A stretch of DNA of 64,000 nucleotides from Paracoccus mutanolyticus (lineage in GTDB: Bacteria; Pseudomonadota; Alphaproteobacteria; Rhodobacterales; Rhodobacteraceae): NCBI RefSeq assembly GCF_003285265.1, contig NZ_CP030239.1, positions 1 to 64,000 on the forward strand, given 5' to 3'. Below the pieces are notes generated by a model that was not told the DNA's origin, made no database searches, and was given only the letters and a program-made list of their open reading frames with translations. Positions 8,798 through 29,375 of the stretch are shown one piece after another. The position numbers and the translations under genes are program-made. The first letter of the stretch is position 1. Each line of letters begins with the position of its first letter.

Positions 8798-9172
8798 ATG
8801 ACAATGATGCCCAACGTGATCCAGTTCCAGCCGCGTCGCGCAGACCCCGTGACGCGCCCCTTTCGGCGCCCCCGCCTGCTGGTCCAGGCCGCCCGTGCCG
8901 GCCTGAACGGATGGAATCGCAAGCGGGACCTGCGGCGGCTTCTGAAATGCGACGACCTGCCTGAACCGGGCGCCGCCCTGCCCCGCCTTGCCGCCGAAGA
9001 GGCGCGGCTGGATCAGGCCCGGCGCGAGGCGCAGGCCGACTACGACCTTCAACGCCACATCCTGCTGCTGGTCGCCATCATCGCTGAAACCGCCGGTCAG
9101 ATGCGGCACATGGCCCCGGCCGGAGGCGCGACGATCACTTCGTTCGGAACAGCGATCCCAGCACGCCCCTGA
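8798..9172 (+). CDS. DUF6477 family protein
   Basis: A 124-residue protein with the family core RRPRLLVQAARAGLNGW, RDLRRLLKCDDLP and a C-terminal helix DYDLQRHILLLVAIIAE. The family is confined to Rhodobacterales and its function is not known. AGGAGA lies eight bases before the ATG at 8798. The last 38 bases overlap the 3' end of the convergent HerA-like gene, so the final residues are constrained by both frames. Divergent from the DUF6456 gene, suggesting shared control from the A/T-rich gap. Confidence 0.7.
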   Translation: MTMMPNVIQFQPRRADPVTRPFRRPRLLVQAARAGLNGWNRKRDLRRLLKCDDLPEPGAALPRLAAEEARLDQARREAQADYDLQRHILLLVAIIAETAGQMRHMAPAGGATITSFGTAIPARP

Positions 9173-10682
9173 CGATGGCCTGCCCGGTCTTCGTCCCGAT
9201 CTGCCGGGCCAGGCTTTTGCCGAACGCCTCGGCGATGCTGTCGGCGTTGCTCCTGCGCGTGGGCGCCCGGGGTTCGCGGATCTGGATCGACGGGTCGGGG
9301 CGACGTGCCCGCGGCTTTTCCATCGCCCACAGGTCATCGTCCAAGGGCTTTGGCGCGGCCGCCTGCTCGGTCCGGCGGGCCAGCAACTCGGCGGCGGATT
9401 CCCGGTCCAGCGCCTTGCCGTATTTCAACCCAAGGGCCGAAGCCGCGACGATCGCCGCCCGCTCGGCATCGGTGATCGGGCCAAGCTGCGACAGCGGCGG
9501 CCGGATCAGCGTGCGCTGCGCCACGCCCGGCACGCCCTTCTCCTCAAGCAGCGAGGTGACGGCCTCGCCCGTGCCCAGCGACAGGATCGCCCCGGCGGTG
9601 TCGAAGGCGGGATTGGCGCGATAGTTCTGCGCCGCCAACCGCAGCGCCTTCTGGTCCTTGGCAGTAAAGGCGCGCAAGCCGTGCTGCACGCGGTTGCCCA
9701 GCTGGCCCAGCACTCCCTCCGGCAGGTCGGCCGGGTTCTGGGTGATGAACCACAGGCTGACCCCTTTCGAGCGGATCAGCCGCGCCACCTGCTCGATCTT
9801 GGCGACCAGCGCCGCGGGCGCATCGTTGAACAGCAGATGCGCCTCGTCGAAGAAAAAGGCGATGCGCGGCTTGTCCGGGTCGCCCACCTCGGGCAGTTGC
9901 TCGAACAGTTCGGACATCAGCCACAGCAGGAAGGTCGCATAAAGCCGCGGCGCGTTCATCAGCCGCTCGGCCGACAGGATGCTGACTACACCCTTGCCCG
10001 AGGCATCCAGCCGCACCAGATCGGCAAGCTCCAGCGCCGGCTCTCCGAACAGCAGGCTGCCCCCCTCGTTCTCAAGCACCATCAGCGCCCGCTGGATCGC
10101 CCCCACCGACGCGGCCGAGACATTGCCATAGGTCAGGCTCAGTTCCCTGGCGTTCTGGCCGACCCAGACCAGCATGGCCTGCAGGTCCTTCATGTCCAAG
10201 AGCGCCAGCCCCTGCTGGTCGGCGACGCGGAAGGCGATGTTCAGGACTCCCTCCTGCGCGTCGGTCAGGCCCAGAAGGCGCGACAGCAGCAGCGGGCCCA
10301 TTTCCGCCGGGGTGGCGCGGACCGGGTGGCCGCGCTCGCCCCAGATATCCCAGAACGTCACGGGAAAGCCCTGGTAATCCAGCGGCGCGCCGATCTGCGC
10401 GGCGCGCCTGGCAAAGGCCTCGGCCAGACCGGCGTCGCCGCCGCCGGGCTTGGCAAGCCCCGCCAGATCGCCTTTCACATCCGCCAGAAAAACAGGCACC
10501 CCCGCACGCGAAAACGACTCGGCCAGCGTCTGCAAGGTGACGGTCTTGCCCGTCCCGGTCGCGCCGGCGATCAGCCCGTGGCGATTGGCATATTTCAGCA
10601 GCAGGACCTGCGGAACTGCATGGCCTTCTCCGCCGCCGCCCAGCAGCACGGTTCCCCTTTCGAAATCAACGATTTCCGTCAC
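9135..10682 (-). CDS. HerA-like ATPase of the DUF853 (YjgR) family
   Basis: Cytoplasmic P-loop ATPase of the HerA/FtsK superfamily, about 515 residues. Walker A is GATGTGKTVTLQ near residue 39, the Walker B region is RIAFFFDEAHLLF, and FITQNPADLPEGVLGQLGNRVQHGLRAF is the usual DUF853 stretch (given here as separate motifs FITQNPADLP and LGNRVQHGLRAF). The C-terminus is basic (RRPDPSIQIREPRAPTRRS). I chose the GTG at 10682 (VTEIVDFERG) because GGGGGAA precedes it and the sequence is family-like from there; an ATG at 10736 would add 18 unlikely residues and run into the candidate small RNA promoter region. Role in E. coli YjgR is not settled. Confidence 0.85.
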   Translation of the reverse strand: MTEIVDFERGTVLLGGGGEGHAVPQVLLLKYANRHGLIAGATGTGKTVTLQTLAESFSRAGVPVFLADVKGDLAGLAKPGGGDAGLAEAFARRAAQIGAPLDYQGFPVTFWDIWGERGHPVRATPAEMGPLLLSRLLGLTDAQEGVLNIAFRVADQQGLALLDMKDLQAMLVWVGQNARELSLTYGNVSAASVGAIQRALMVLENEGGSLLFGEPALELADLVRLDASGKGVVSILSAERLMNAPRLYATFLLWLMSELFEQLPEVGDPDKPRIAFFFDEAHLLFNDAPAALVAKIEQVARLIRSKGVSLWFITQNPADLPEGVLGQLGNRVQHGLRAFTAKDQKALRLAAQNYRANPAFDTAGAILSLGTGEAVTSLLEEKGVPGVAQRTLIRPPLSQLGPITDAERAAIVAASALGLKYGKALDRESAAELLARRTEQAAAPKPLDDDLWAMEKPRARRPDPSIQIREPRAPTRRSNADSIAEAFGKSLARQIGTKTGQAIVRGVLGSLFRTK

Positions 10683-10744
10683 CCCGTTCCCCCAGATCGG
10701 CAAAAAGATGCACAGCACGACGAAAGGACAATACAACCGTAACG

Positions 10745-10840
10745 AATTTGTGCCACTCTGTTCATGTCGGGGTTCGTGGTGGCGCGAGCCCCGATTTTCC
10801 TCCCTGTTGGACTGCCGCGCCTTCGGGCGCGGCTTTTTTC
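10745..10840 (+). ncRNA. Candidate small RNA with exposed CCUCCC and intrinsic terminator
   Basis: A first stem pairs TCGGGGTTCG (10769-10778) with CGAGCCCCGA, followed by the single-stranded stretch TTTTCCTCCCTGTTGG, then a perfect terminator hairpin and six T. Two stems separated by an unpaired CCUCCC, complementary to Shine-Dalgarno sequences, is the layout of trans-acting alphaproteobacterial small RNAs, possibly the suhB/alpha-r14 sort. No coding frame fits. The 5' end is a guess; I see no clear -35 box. Confidence 0.5.
10814..10839 (+). terminator. Intrinsic terminator
   Basis: GCCGCGCC-TTCG-GGCGCGGC followed by TTTTTT: an eight-pair stem with a stable UUCG loop and a U tract, in the forward direction. 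No forward gene ends here, which is the main argument for the small RNA upstream. Confidence 0.85.
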
Positions 10841-10911
10841 ATGCAAGTGCCTGCTTCGGCGGATTTATGTGAATACAAGCGGGGTTTTGGCCTGTCTGAC
10901 AAGGTGACCAT

Positions 10912-11028
10912 TAGAACAGTTGACGGCTTGATGACTGCGTTCTAGCTTTCCGACCAATGATGACCGGCCAGTCCGGCAGGGAAGGGAAGCTTGGGGACCC
11001 GGGGTGCGCGTAACGCGCCCCGGGTCCC
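10912..11028. other. Non-coding stretch with two inverted repeats
   Basis: The interval from about 10840 to 11173 holds no credible gene. TAGAAC at 10912 and GTTCTA at 10939 frame a short dyad. At 10994-11028 an 11-base arm GGGACCCGGGG pairs with CCCCGGGTCCC around a CGCG-rich centre, a very stable hairpin followed by TTGCCTTT, so it may end transcription in either direction. Confidence 0.4.
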
Positions 11029-11173
11029 TTGCCTTTCCGGGACGGCGCATGTCCCGCCAACCTATCGCATGGCAAGGCAACACAAAGTTGACGGGCCGCC
11101 CGGCGAACGCCCCTGACAAGGATGCGGACGCATGGTAAGTCGTCCCGACAACTTGGACCAAAGGAAGAGAACC

Positions 11174-11917
11174 ATGGCCAACAGGACGTCTGCGGCTCTG
11201 CTCGCCGCCATCTTCAGCATCGCCGGAGCGACCGGCGCGATGGCGCAAACCACCGAGGCCCCGGCCCCCGCCGCACCCGCGGCTCAGGCACCCGCAGCCG
11301 ATGCCCCAGCCACGCCGCCCGCGGCCGAGGCGCCCGCCGCCGGCACCGAGGCCCCTGCCGCAGCCGCCCCGGCCGAGACGGGCGAGCCCAAGGTCGGCCA
11401 GACCTATGCCCGCTCGACCCACGGCGACTGGACGCTGCGCTGCATGAAGACGGCGGAGGGCAAGGACCCGTGCGAGCTTTACCAGTTGCTCAAGGACGCG
11501 CAGGGCGCCTCCGTCGCGGAAACCTCGGTGCTGCCGATGACCGGCAACGTCCAGGCCGTGGTGACCTTTGTGGCGCCGCTGGAAACCGACCTTCAGGCCG
11601 GGCTTGGCCTGCAGATCGACACCGGCAAGGAGGCGCGCTATCCCTTCATGCTGTGCGCGCCGGTGGGCTGCATCTCGCGCATTGGCCTGACCGAGGCCGA
11701 GGTCGCCCCCCTCAAGAAAGGCAACGCGGCGACCGTTTCGGTCCTGCCCTTCGGCGCGCCCAAGGAGCAGATGGTCCGGCTGAACCTGTCGCTCAAGGGC
11801 TTTACCGCCGGCATGGATGCCCTGGTCCAGGCGAACAAGGCCGTGGCCCAGGCCCAGCCCGCCCCGGCACCCGCGCCCGCTGCCGCCCCTGCTCCGGCCC
11901 CGGCCGCCAAGCCCTGA
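11174..11917 (+). CDS. IalB-type (invasion-associated locus B) secreted protein
   Basis: A 247-residue exported protein. Residues 1-25 form a signal peptide ending AMAQ. An Ala/Pro-rich linker of about 45 residues follows, then the IalB domain from about residue 72 (YARSTHGDWTLRC) with four cysteines in pairs (RCMKTAEGKDPC and LCAPVGC), probably disulfide-bonded in the periplasm. The C-terminus is another Ala/Pro repeat tail. The start at 11174 is set by AAGGAAGAGA just upstream. IalB proteins are linked to host invasion in Bartonella but are common in free-living alphaproteobacteria, so no virulence role should be read in. A strong terminator follows at 11943. Confidence 0.85.
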   Translation: MANRTSAALLAAIFSIAGATGAMAQTTEAPAPAAPAAQAPAADAPATPPAAEAPAAGTEAPAAAAPAETGEPKVGQTYARSTHGDWTLRCMKTAEGKDPCELYQLLKDAQGASVAETSVLPMTGNVQAVVTFVAPLETDLQAGLGLQIDTGKEARYPFMLCAPVGCISRIGLTEAEVAPLKKGNAATVSVLPFGAPKEQMVRLNLSLKGFTAGMDALVQANKAVAQAQPAPAPAPAAAPAPAPAAKP

Positions 11918-11942
11918 GGCAACCGGAATAGTAAATGACACA

Positions 11943-11972
11943 GGGCCGGGTCGCAAAGACCCGGCCCTTTTT
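11943..11972 (+). terminator. Intrinsic terminator after the IalB gene
   Basis: GGGCCGGGTC-GCAAA-GACCCGGCCC, a perfect ten-pair stem, followed by TTTTT. Confidence 0.9.
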
Positions 11973-12021
11973 CATGTCCGCAAGGCTTGGCAGGCCCCGA
12001 GAGGCCTGCCGGATGCCCGTC

Positions 12022-29061: not shown

Positions 29062-29145
29062 GGGTCGCCCTTTCCCTTGGCGGGCGAGACCTTGGTTCGT
29101 CATCGTTCGGCCTCGCAGGTGAGGCCGGCGTCAGGCAGGCGCATC

Positions 29146-29256
29146 TCTCCCATCCCTTCGCCGGCATGATCCGGATCAGGTTCTAAGGGTCATCGCGCCG
29201 CCCATTCCGGGACGCCAGCGAACTCTCAGCCCCTTGCCGGGACTCCCCTTGGTGGC
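29146..29256 (-). promoter_or_regulatory. TPP riboswitch (THI box) upstream of tenA
   Basis: On the minus strand the conserved parts appear in order: GGGGAGTCCCGG, GGGGCTGAGAGTT (pyrimidine sensor), GACCCTTAGAACCTGATCCG and CCGGCGAAGGGATGG. The element ends about 85 bases before tenA. Binding of thiamine pyrophosphate should switch tenA off, probably at translation since I see no terminator in the gap. Confidence 0.95.
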
Positions 29257-29375
29257 GAACGGTCTAGCGCGGCGTCATCGCCGTGTCACCCTGCCCTGGA
29301 CTGATAAGCACCGATTCCCCGCTTGCAGCCCGGGGCGATCTGCGTTGATGTAGGCTGCATATCTGGGCGAGGACG

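Follow-up and report, generated by a model that had tools for sequence, protein, structure and literature searches.

A predicted anti-Shine-Dalgarno small RNA and a conserved, complementary neighbouring RNA between herA and ialB in Paracoccus and other Rhodobacteraceae

The question raised by this locus is what the gap between a herA-like gene and an ialB-family gene encodes in Paracoccus mutanolyticus, in a window of 64,000 nucleotides, i.e. the whole stretch that was analysed (contig NZ_CP030239.1, positions 1 to 64,000). A sequence-only reading had placed there a candidate trans-acting small RNA (sRNA) with an exposed anti-Shine-Dalgarno (anti-SD) segment. The analysis supports this RNA, called here sRNA1, as a predicted trans-acting anti-SD sRNA, and the new element is sRNA2, a conserved neighbour complementary to the working segment of sRNA1. 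Both elements, their conservation, their promoter and terminator signals and their complementarity are supported at the sequence level. We favour, with modest confidence, the reading that sRNA1 would be a repressor and sRNA2 its decoy, encoded at one locus; transcription in this organism, repression and sponging are all predicted steps of that reading.

sRNA1 consists of a 13-bp hairpin followed by the linker UUUUCCUCCCUGUUGGACU and a terminator. The UUUUCCUCCCUGUUGGAC stretch between hairpin and terminator is open: the minimum-energy fold leaves CCUCCC (positions 10799-10804) unpaired, with just a weak loop of 3 bp formed around it. All eight pairs of the terminator stem are G-C, and the RNA folds at -46.1 kcal/mol versus -30.2 (sd 3.1) for dinucleotide shuffles (z -5.2; none of 200 as good), which bears out the hairpin, unpaired stretch and perfect terminator described in the sequence-only reading. 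Also its statement that no forward gene ends in the gap held, since the flanks are the herA-like gene on the minus strand and ialB, the next forward gene. Upstream of sRNA1 there is a conserved box with the consensus ATACaa.cTTAAcc.tt...tGCcAga.T in 58 genera and ATACaAt.tTAA....tttgTGCCAgt.T in 30 Paracoccus loci. The box may serve sRNA1, the divergent herA-like gene or a regulator. Its arrangement, ATACAA-NN-TTAACC-N-TGCCA, is unlike the usual -35/-10 pair of the plus strand.

The herA gene was found in 129 of the 149 genomes of the family at E<=1e-60. After removal of the P. mutanolyticus genome and Paracoccus, 127 herA-positive genomes remained, and the stretch upstream of herA was taken from 80 of these, one per genus; ialB was present in 78 of the 80 loci. 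Within Paracoccus 31 loci were fetched, one of them a paralogue in the P. mutanolyticus genome itself (L002), which was set apart; of the remaining 30, 28 have herA on the upstream side and 29 have ialB on the downstream side. Of 101 genomes searched at the DNA level, 59 gave a match, all of them among the 61 Paracoccus genomes (P. mutanolyticus included) and none among the 40 others. The core 23-mer of sRNA1 was present with at most two mismatches in 79 of 125 Paracoccus genomes (reversed-pattern control 0), 46 being without it at this stringency, and with at most two substitutions in 58 of the 80 other genera. In Paracoccus the sequence of the 5' hairpin is highly variable, and the linker and terminator are almost unchanged. 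The covariance model R1, built from 14 Paracoccus sequences with the window left out, matched the window at 10765-10840 (71.2 bits, E 1.1e-16) and 68 of the 80 other-genera loci at the syntenic place (E<=0.01; 69 rows, one locus being matched twice). Just two places in the P. mutanolyticus genome reached E<0.001, the window and L002.

Covariation in relatives, the lack of which the sequence-only reading had named as speaking against its proposal, was looked for and is present. In the model-fitted alignment, which is biased towards its own structure, double changes occurred in all 13 pairs of sRNA1, with 162 double-change cells versus 50.9 (sd 5.2) in shuffled alignments (none of 500 as high) and at most 17 when the partners were slid. 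The unfitted alignment of 14 rows had 3 of 13 pairs and 8 cells changed on both sides, values reached by 80 and 2 of 500 shuffles, respectively. RNAalifold returned the terminator alone from the plain alignment A1 because the 5' hairpins were out of register, a problem solved by the structure-based model. Among 88 orthologues the 5' segment folded more stably than its shuffles (z on average -2.35, below -1 in 74 and below -2 in 50), and the mean unpaired probability of CCUCCCUG was 0.71. The fixed position together with the conserved box, hairpin, linker and terminator supports a predicted conserved sRNA with an exposed anti-SD segment. A second UGUCCUC motif was seen by eye in the 5' hairpin loop of many roseobacter-type orthologues (L190-L269); the window RNA does not have it.

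No Rfam family exceeded its cut-off at 10766-10839. The best matches were SorX (RF02784; 37.2 bits, E 1.7e-7, gathering cut-off 46.6) and SorY (RF02651; 33.8 bits, E 3.7e-5, gathering cut-off 111), and suhB (RF00519) reached 15.2 bits (E 1.5, gathering cut-off 41). The suggested covariance search pointed in this way to kin without assigning a family. Of the proposed suhB/alpha-r14 kinship, the presence of the 10-mer UUUCCUCCCU stands, but SorX and SorY are nearer than RF00519. The naming of RF00519 as alpha-r14 was mistaken, as Rfam describes this family (suhB) as mmgR, i.e. alphaR8; alpha-r14 is presumably a label distinct from it. The sRNA1 orthologues of other genera scored 24-33 bits with suhB (maximum 33.4), also below the cut-off, and 25 related loci (24 from family genera or Paracoccus and the Rhodobacter sphaeroides locus) remained below it for both SorX (best 41.2) and suhB (best 33.2). 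No suhB match over the cut-off was found in eight family genomes, and in one of these, genome G154, the best suhB match was the herA-ialB sRNA1 locus (33.4 bits). Eight of 14 control genomes had suhB matches at E<=0.1, one over the cut-off. The SorX model matched 141 of the 149 family genomes at E<=0.001, in 117 over the cut-off, and at the same threshold just Caulobacter among the 14 controls, below the cut-off; at E<=0.01 four of the 14 controls matched, so weak SorX-model matches alone mean little. At least 118 stretches of CCTCCCTGTTGGACT followed by a T-run were present in genome contigs, and among the matches listed nearly all were from Rhodobacteraceae or unclassified alphaproteobacteria; Rhizobiales and Maritalea were each represented at least once.

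The core CUCCCUGUUGGAC, a 5' hairpin and a GC terminator are shared by the window RNA with SorX and SorY, which are both found by model R1 at 30-32 bits and have been described as Hfq-linked regulators of transporters (PMC5036791, PMC9438474, PMC8307010; published work is cited here and below from excerpts of the papers). The SorX-model matches in genome G150 start at 2,598,225 and 1,632,636, and the reported SorX RNase E site and SorY start of R. sphaeroides are at 2,598,224 and 1,632,642 (PMC6238624), coordinates that identify G150 as R. sphaeroides 2.4.1. A third match in that genome (L182) was rejected, being on reading without the core. The best suhB/mmgR match of the same genome, L312 (G150:C4:1639296-1639375; 32 bits, below the cut-off), is situated about 6.6 kb from SorY and is possibly a further sibling. 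As lysR and purL flank both the R. sphaeroides SorY and L002, the latter is the SorY counterpart of P. mutanolyticus; it scored 48.3 bits with SorX, passing the cut-off, and 55.4 bits with SorY, missing the cut-off of 111. The window RNA differs from SorX and SorY in its place between herA and ialB without a forward gene upstream and in missing both cut-offs, and the lysR-purL place of SorY is held by L002 instead. With the alphaR8 RNAs (suhB/mmgR, RF00519; SisA-D of Caulobacter, MmgR of Sinorhizobium) it has in common UUUCCUCCCU between hairpin and terminator, reported as their single-stranded core 10-mer (PMC12559287), but it is flanked by the herA-like gene and ialB and not by the N-formylglutamate amidohydrolase gene that most alphaR8 copies adjoin, a typical though not universal arrangement (PMC12559287). 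Judged by these sequence comparisons, sRNA1 is a separate, uncatalogued member of the SorX/SorY/alphaR8-like group, outside any one Rfam family.

sRNA2 first showed up in loci without a clear sRNA1. It is on the same strand about 115 nt downstream of sRNA1, before ialB, and is laid out as TTGAC, 17 nt, TAGCGT, then GTCGG-CCAGT-CCGAC-AGGGAG, often an A-rich part, and a terminator. A substitution-only search allowing at most four substitutions found it in 66 of the 80 genera and 26 of the 30 Paracoccus loci; a version with a single additional loop base or another small change is present in 11 of the other 14 genera, and the four remaining Paracoccus loci showed it in a tolerant search, the totals being 77 of 80 genera and 30 of 30 Paracoccus loci. 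Of the 80 genera, 68 have an sRNA1 model match at this locus and every one of these also has sRNA2; nine have sRNA2 alone and three neither. All 92 loci have TTGAC 39-46 nt before the sRNA2 core. After a further 17 nt comes a hexamer that reads TAGCGT or TAACGT in 48 of 66 genera, and among the 26 Paracoccus loci 16 have TAGCGT. One stem pair is exchanged, U-A in 32 of 43 rows and C-G in 11. The window sRNA2 folds with a z of -3.7, and nearly all aligned rows have a terminator before ialB. A start codon follows GGGAG at a distance of 3-12 nt in just 27 of 92 loci, and no reading frame is therefore conserved after it. Rfam scans of the sRNA2 region (5 and 20 loci) gave scattered weak matches, none over the cut-off. 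Of 289 genomes drawn across the class, one had the exact core; it belongs to the same family, of which the draw included just four genomes, and the exact pattern misses P. mutanolyticus itself as well. The core sequence was not found in the open-licence literature.

The hairpin and AGGGA of sRNA2 complement the linker of sRNA1, and also SorX and SorY. The commonest duplex in other genera, CTCCCTGTCAGACTGGCC of sRNA1 against GGCCAGTCCGACRGGGAG of sRNA2, has 17 of 18 positions paired when wobble is included. Duplexes were assessed in the 80 of the 92 sRNA2 loci that had a recognisable linker (54 genera and 26 Paracoccus; 12 dropped). Ungapped duplexes had 10-17 Watson-Crick pairs in 78 of these, the lowest values occurring where the linker had lost a base, and in 72 sRNA2 ranked first among the ungapped complements of the linker within the surrounding 2.7-3.1 kb. 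The mean z of the duplex energy was -3.0, with 128 of 8000 shuffles as good. The R. sphaeroides sRNA2 paired with the linker alone at -33.8 (SorY), -37.6 (SorX) and -32.7 kcal/mol (its own sRNA1-like RNA), and the window sRNA2 with L002 at -33.7 kcal/mol; in these comparisons 0-1 of 300 shuffles were as good. A joint change combines GACUU of sRNA1 with AAG of sRNA2, and GACUG with CAG; among the 52 genera that could be classified the counts were 8/1/2/41 (Fisher p 5e-7), and the other 21 of the 73 genera rows belonged to neither class. Within the joint-type group, one locus (L241, GACUUA/UAAGUC) has a further matching step, and two Paracoccus loci combine GACUU with CAG.

According to the proposed mechanism, two short RNAs would be made in tandem from separate promoters, and each would end at a terminator of its own. 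sRNA1 would be a trans-acting regulator of the SorX/SorY/alphaR8 type, whose UUUCCUCCCUG, framed by hairpin and terminator, would pair with the SD regions of target mRNAs and block their translation. sRNA2 would act as a decoy, its hairpin loop, 3' stem and AGGGA(G) mimicking an SD site, and by pairing across the whole conserved linker CUCCCUGUUGGACUG it would sequester sRNA1 and also the relatives SorX and SorY. A dedicated sponge would explain why the linker is so conserved also beyond its anti-SD (GUUGGACU). That the Rhodobacteraceae carry such a near-universal sponge against sRNA1, SorX and SorY, in tandem with one member of the group, we regard as evenly poised. The precedent is CrfA of Caulobacter, which has been reported to pair with the 10-mer UUUCCUCCCU of SisA-D, to lower SisA and to relieve a SisA target, SisA itself repressing through its anti-SD segment (PMC12559287). 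By analogy, sRNA1 would repress and sRNA2 counteract it. In both systems several sibling sRNAs would be bound at their anti-SD core by a second RNA, and the computed duplexes place sRNA2 on the sRNA seed as expected of a CrfA-like sponge; sRNA2 differs in pairing over the whole linker and in being encoded beside one sibling, and the two are likened by mode, not homology. Searches of open-licence papers brought up no report of the sRNA1/sRNA2 pair.

Sites of the form CAGGGAGG-N4-11-ATG number 18 in the P. mutanolyticus genome (reversed-pattern control 0), an enrichment that any SD would show; one of these sites is the antisense side of L002. The frames behind these sites include, according to Pfam, two MFS-type transporters, a polysaccharide-deacetylase-like protein, the start of a class-II aldolase and an AMP-binding enzyme. 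Four further sites belong to copies of one repeated gene (L291, L293, L302, L303), which by reading alone we take for a transposase. The ribosome-binding site of these four copies, CAGGGAGGATTTTGCATG, is an extended complement of the sRNA1 linker. All these genes are candidates only as targets of sRNA1; the transporters fit the reported targets of SorX (potA) and SorY (a malate transporter; PMC9438474, PMC8307010).

In R. sphaeroides 2.4.1, which gave no herA match, an exact sRNA2 and an sRNA1-like RNA are flanked by ialB and by a catalase gene that has a LysR-type gene on its far side. The katE of this species is RSP_2779 (PMC3413700), and UdsE (formerly RSs2778) has been listed as an RNA validated by northern blot and derived from a 5' UTR, which has a start site of its own and an unknown 3' end and is co-transcribed with its mRNA (PMC8625941). 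The excerpts cited assign it neither a function nor a sponge role. From the name and the gene order, RSP_2778 would be the ialB gene of the locus, and UdsE is probably a product of this katE-ialB locus; the likeness to the present RNAs consists in that corresponding place and in the northern detection. UdsE could be sRNA1 or sRNA2, and a start just 5' of GTCGGCCAGTCCGAC would make it sRNA2. RSs1386 was not found in the open-licence literature.

The main rival to the sponge reading is a role as leader of ialB: sRNA2 would mainly be a regulatory leader, to which sRNA1 and its relatives bind, altering termination or decay and setting ialB expression, and free sRNA2 would be a by-product. We consider this unlikely, yet it draws on the position of sRNA2 upstream of ialB and in the same direction in 78/80 loci having ialB, and on UdsE, which is probably from the R. 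sphaeroides locus and for which a 5'-UTR origin and co-transcription with the mRNA have been reported (PMC8625941). The terminator between sRNA2 and ialB in nearly all aligned rows speaks against it, and the sRNA2 core appears to fit the linker of the sRNA family and not anything near the start of ialB. Clearly less probable is that both RNAs are real and do not interact, their complementarity being that of any anti-SD with SD-like sequence. A match of CUCCC with GGGAG alone would be expected on this ground, and the co-evolution of the two RNAs is thin, but in most loci 13-17 of 18 positions are Watson-Crick pairs, a match reaching well beyond the SD part, and the SD-like part of sRNA2 lacks a following reading frame in most of the 92 loci. 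That the window RNA is the SorX or SorY of this organism has a very slight probability: the shared core and the sub-threshold Rfam scores would agree with it, but both cut-offs were missed, L002, the SorY counterpart, is flanked by lysR and purL like the SorY of R. sphaeroides, and a separate syntenic sRNA1 group exists in 68 of 80 genera, so that this orthology was rejected on position. Slighter still is the probability of a terminator or chance hairpin without any sRNA. The promoter scan of 9500-12000 gave no consensus site, but there is no forward gene upstream for a terminator to serve, and linker and hairpin are conserved with covariation; the plain terminator was rejected for these reasons.

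Besides the position of sRNA2 before ialB, some further observations weigh against a repressor with its decoy. The same simple promoter scan gave no sigma-70-like site anywhere in 9500-12000 and does not score the sRNA2 promoter site in the window. The linker exceeded an unpaired probability of 0.7 in just 54 of the 88 orthologues, so it is mostly, though not always, open. In many genera the duplex retains an A-C mismatch at its middle, which speaks against tight co-selection of the two RNAs. In a tree of 101 IalB rows, one group of ten rows contained all cases of the joint type, with four changes needed for sRNA1 and two for sRNA2, too few independent pairs for a test; the coordinated change comes down to roughly one event.

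The features of the locus are collected in Table 1. In its surroundings, a tRNA-Ala called by ARAGORN at 10380-10472 on the minus strand, within the herA-like coding region, is likely false and is missing from the Rfam list. A hairpin at 11942-11968, between ialB and a minus-strand Trypsin/PDZ-domain protease gene, is terminator-like on both strands. Elsewhere in the window, a TPP riboswitch at 29136-29259 on the minus strand was above its Rfam cut-off (68.6 bits).

Table 1. Observed and predicted features between and including the herA-like and ialB-family genes, in window coordinates.
Feature	Position	Strand	Basis
herA-like gene, conserved left neighbour	9138..10679	-	Pfam HerA_C, 700 bits
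Conserved box AATACAA..TAA..GTGCCA..T, candidate promoter region	10730..10760	+	Consensus of relatives
sRNA1, about 74 nt	10766..10839	+	Start predicted, end at terminator; fold, model R1, synteny
5' hairpin of sRNA1	10766..10795	+	13 pairs, 4-nt loop
Anti-SD 10-mer UUUCCUCCCU, as in the alphaR8 family	10796..10805	+	Sequence; family motif as reported (PMC12559287)
Core CUCCCUGUUGGACUG, also present in SorX and SorY	10800..10814	+	Sequence/model comparison
Intrinsic terminator of sRNA1	10814..10839	+	Stem 10814-10833, loop UUCG, U6
Predicted sRNA2 promoter TTGACG, 17 nt, TAGCTT	10920..10948	+	Conserved TTGAC and hexamer
sRNA2, candidate sponge	10955..11030	+	Ends predicted; conservation search
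GGCCAGUCCGGCAGGGA, sRNA2 segment complementary to sRNA1 linker	10966..10982	+	14 uninterrupted pairs (two G-U) with 10801-10814
Terminator-like hairpin of sRNA2	10994..11028	+	15-nt arms; poor T-run in window
ialB-family gene, conserved right neighbour	11132..11917	+	Pfam IalB

SorX and SorY are studied stress regulators of Rhodobacter, and alphaR8 RNAs act elsewhere in carbon storage and nutrient uptake. If the reading of sRNA1 as repressor and sRNA2 as decoy is true, a built-in antagonist would add a missing layer of control to the SorX/SorY/alphaR8-like group, and the orphan RNA UdsE would gain a testable role. It would also be a second alphaproteobacterial case, beside CrfA and SisA-D, of one decoy serving several siblings, here with the decoy encoded beside one of the siblings and kept in 77 of 80 genera.
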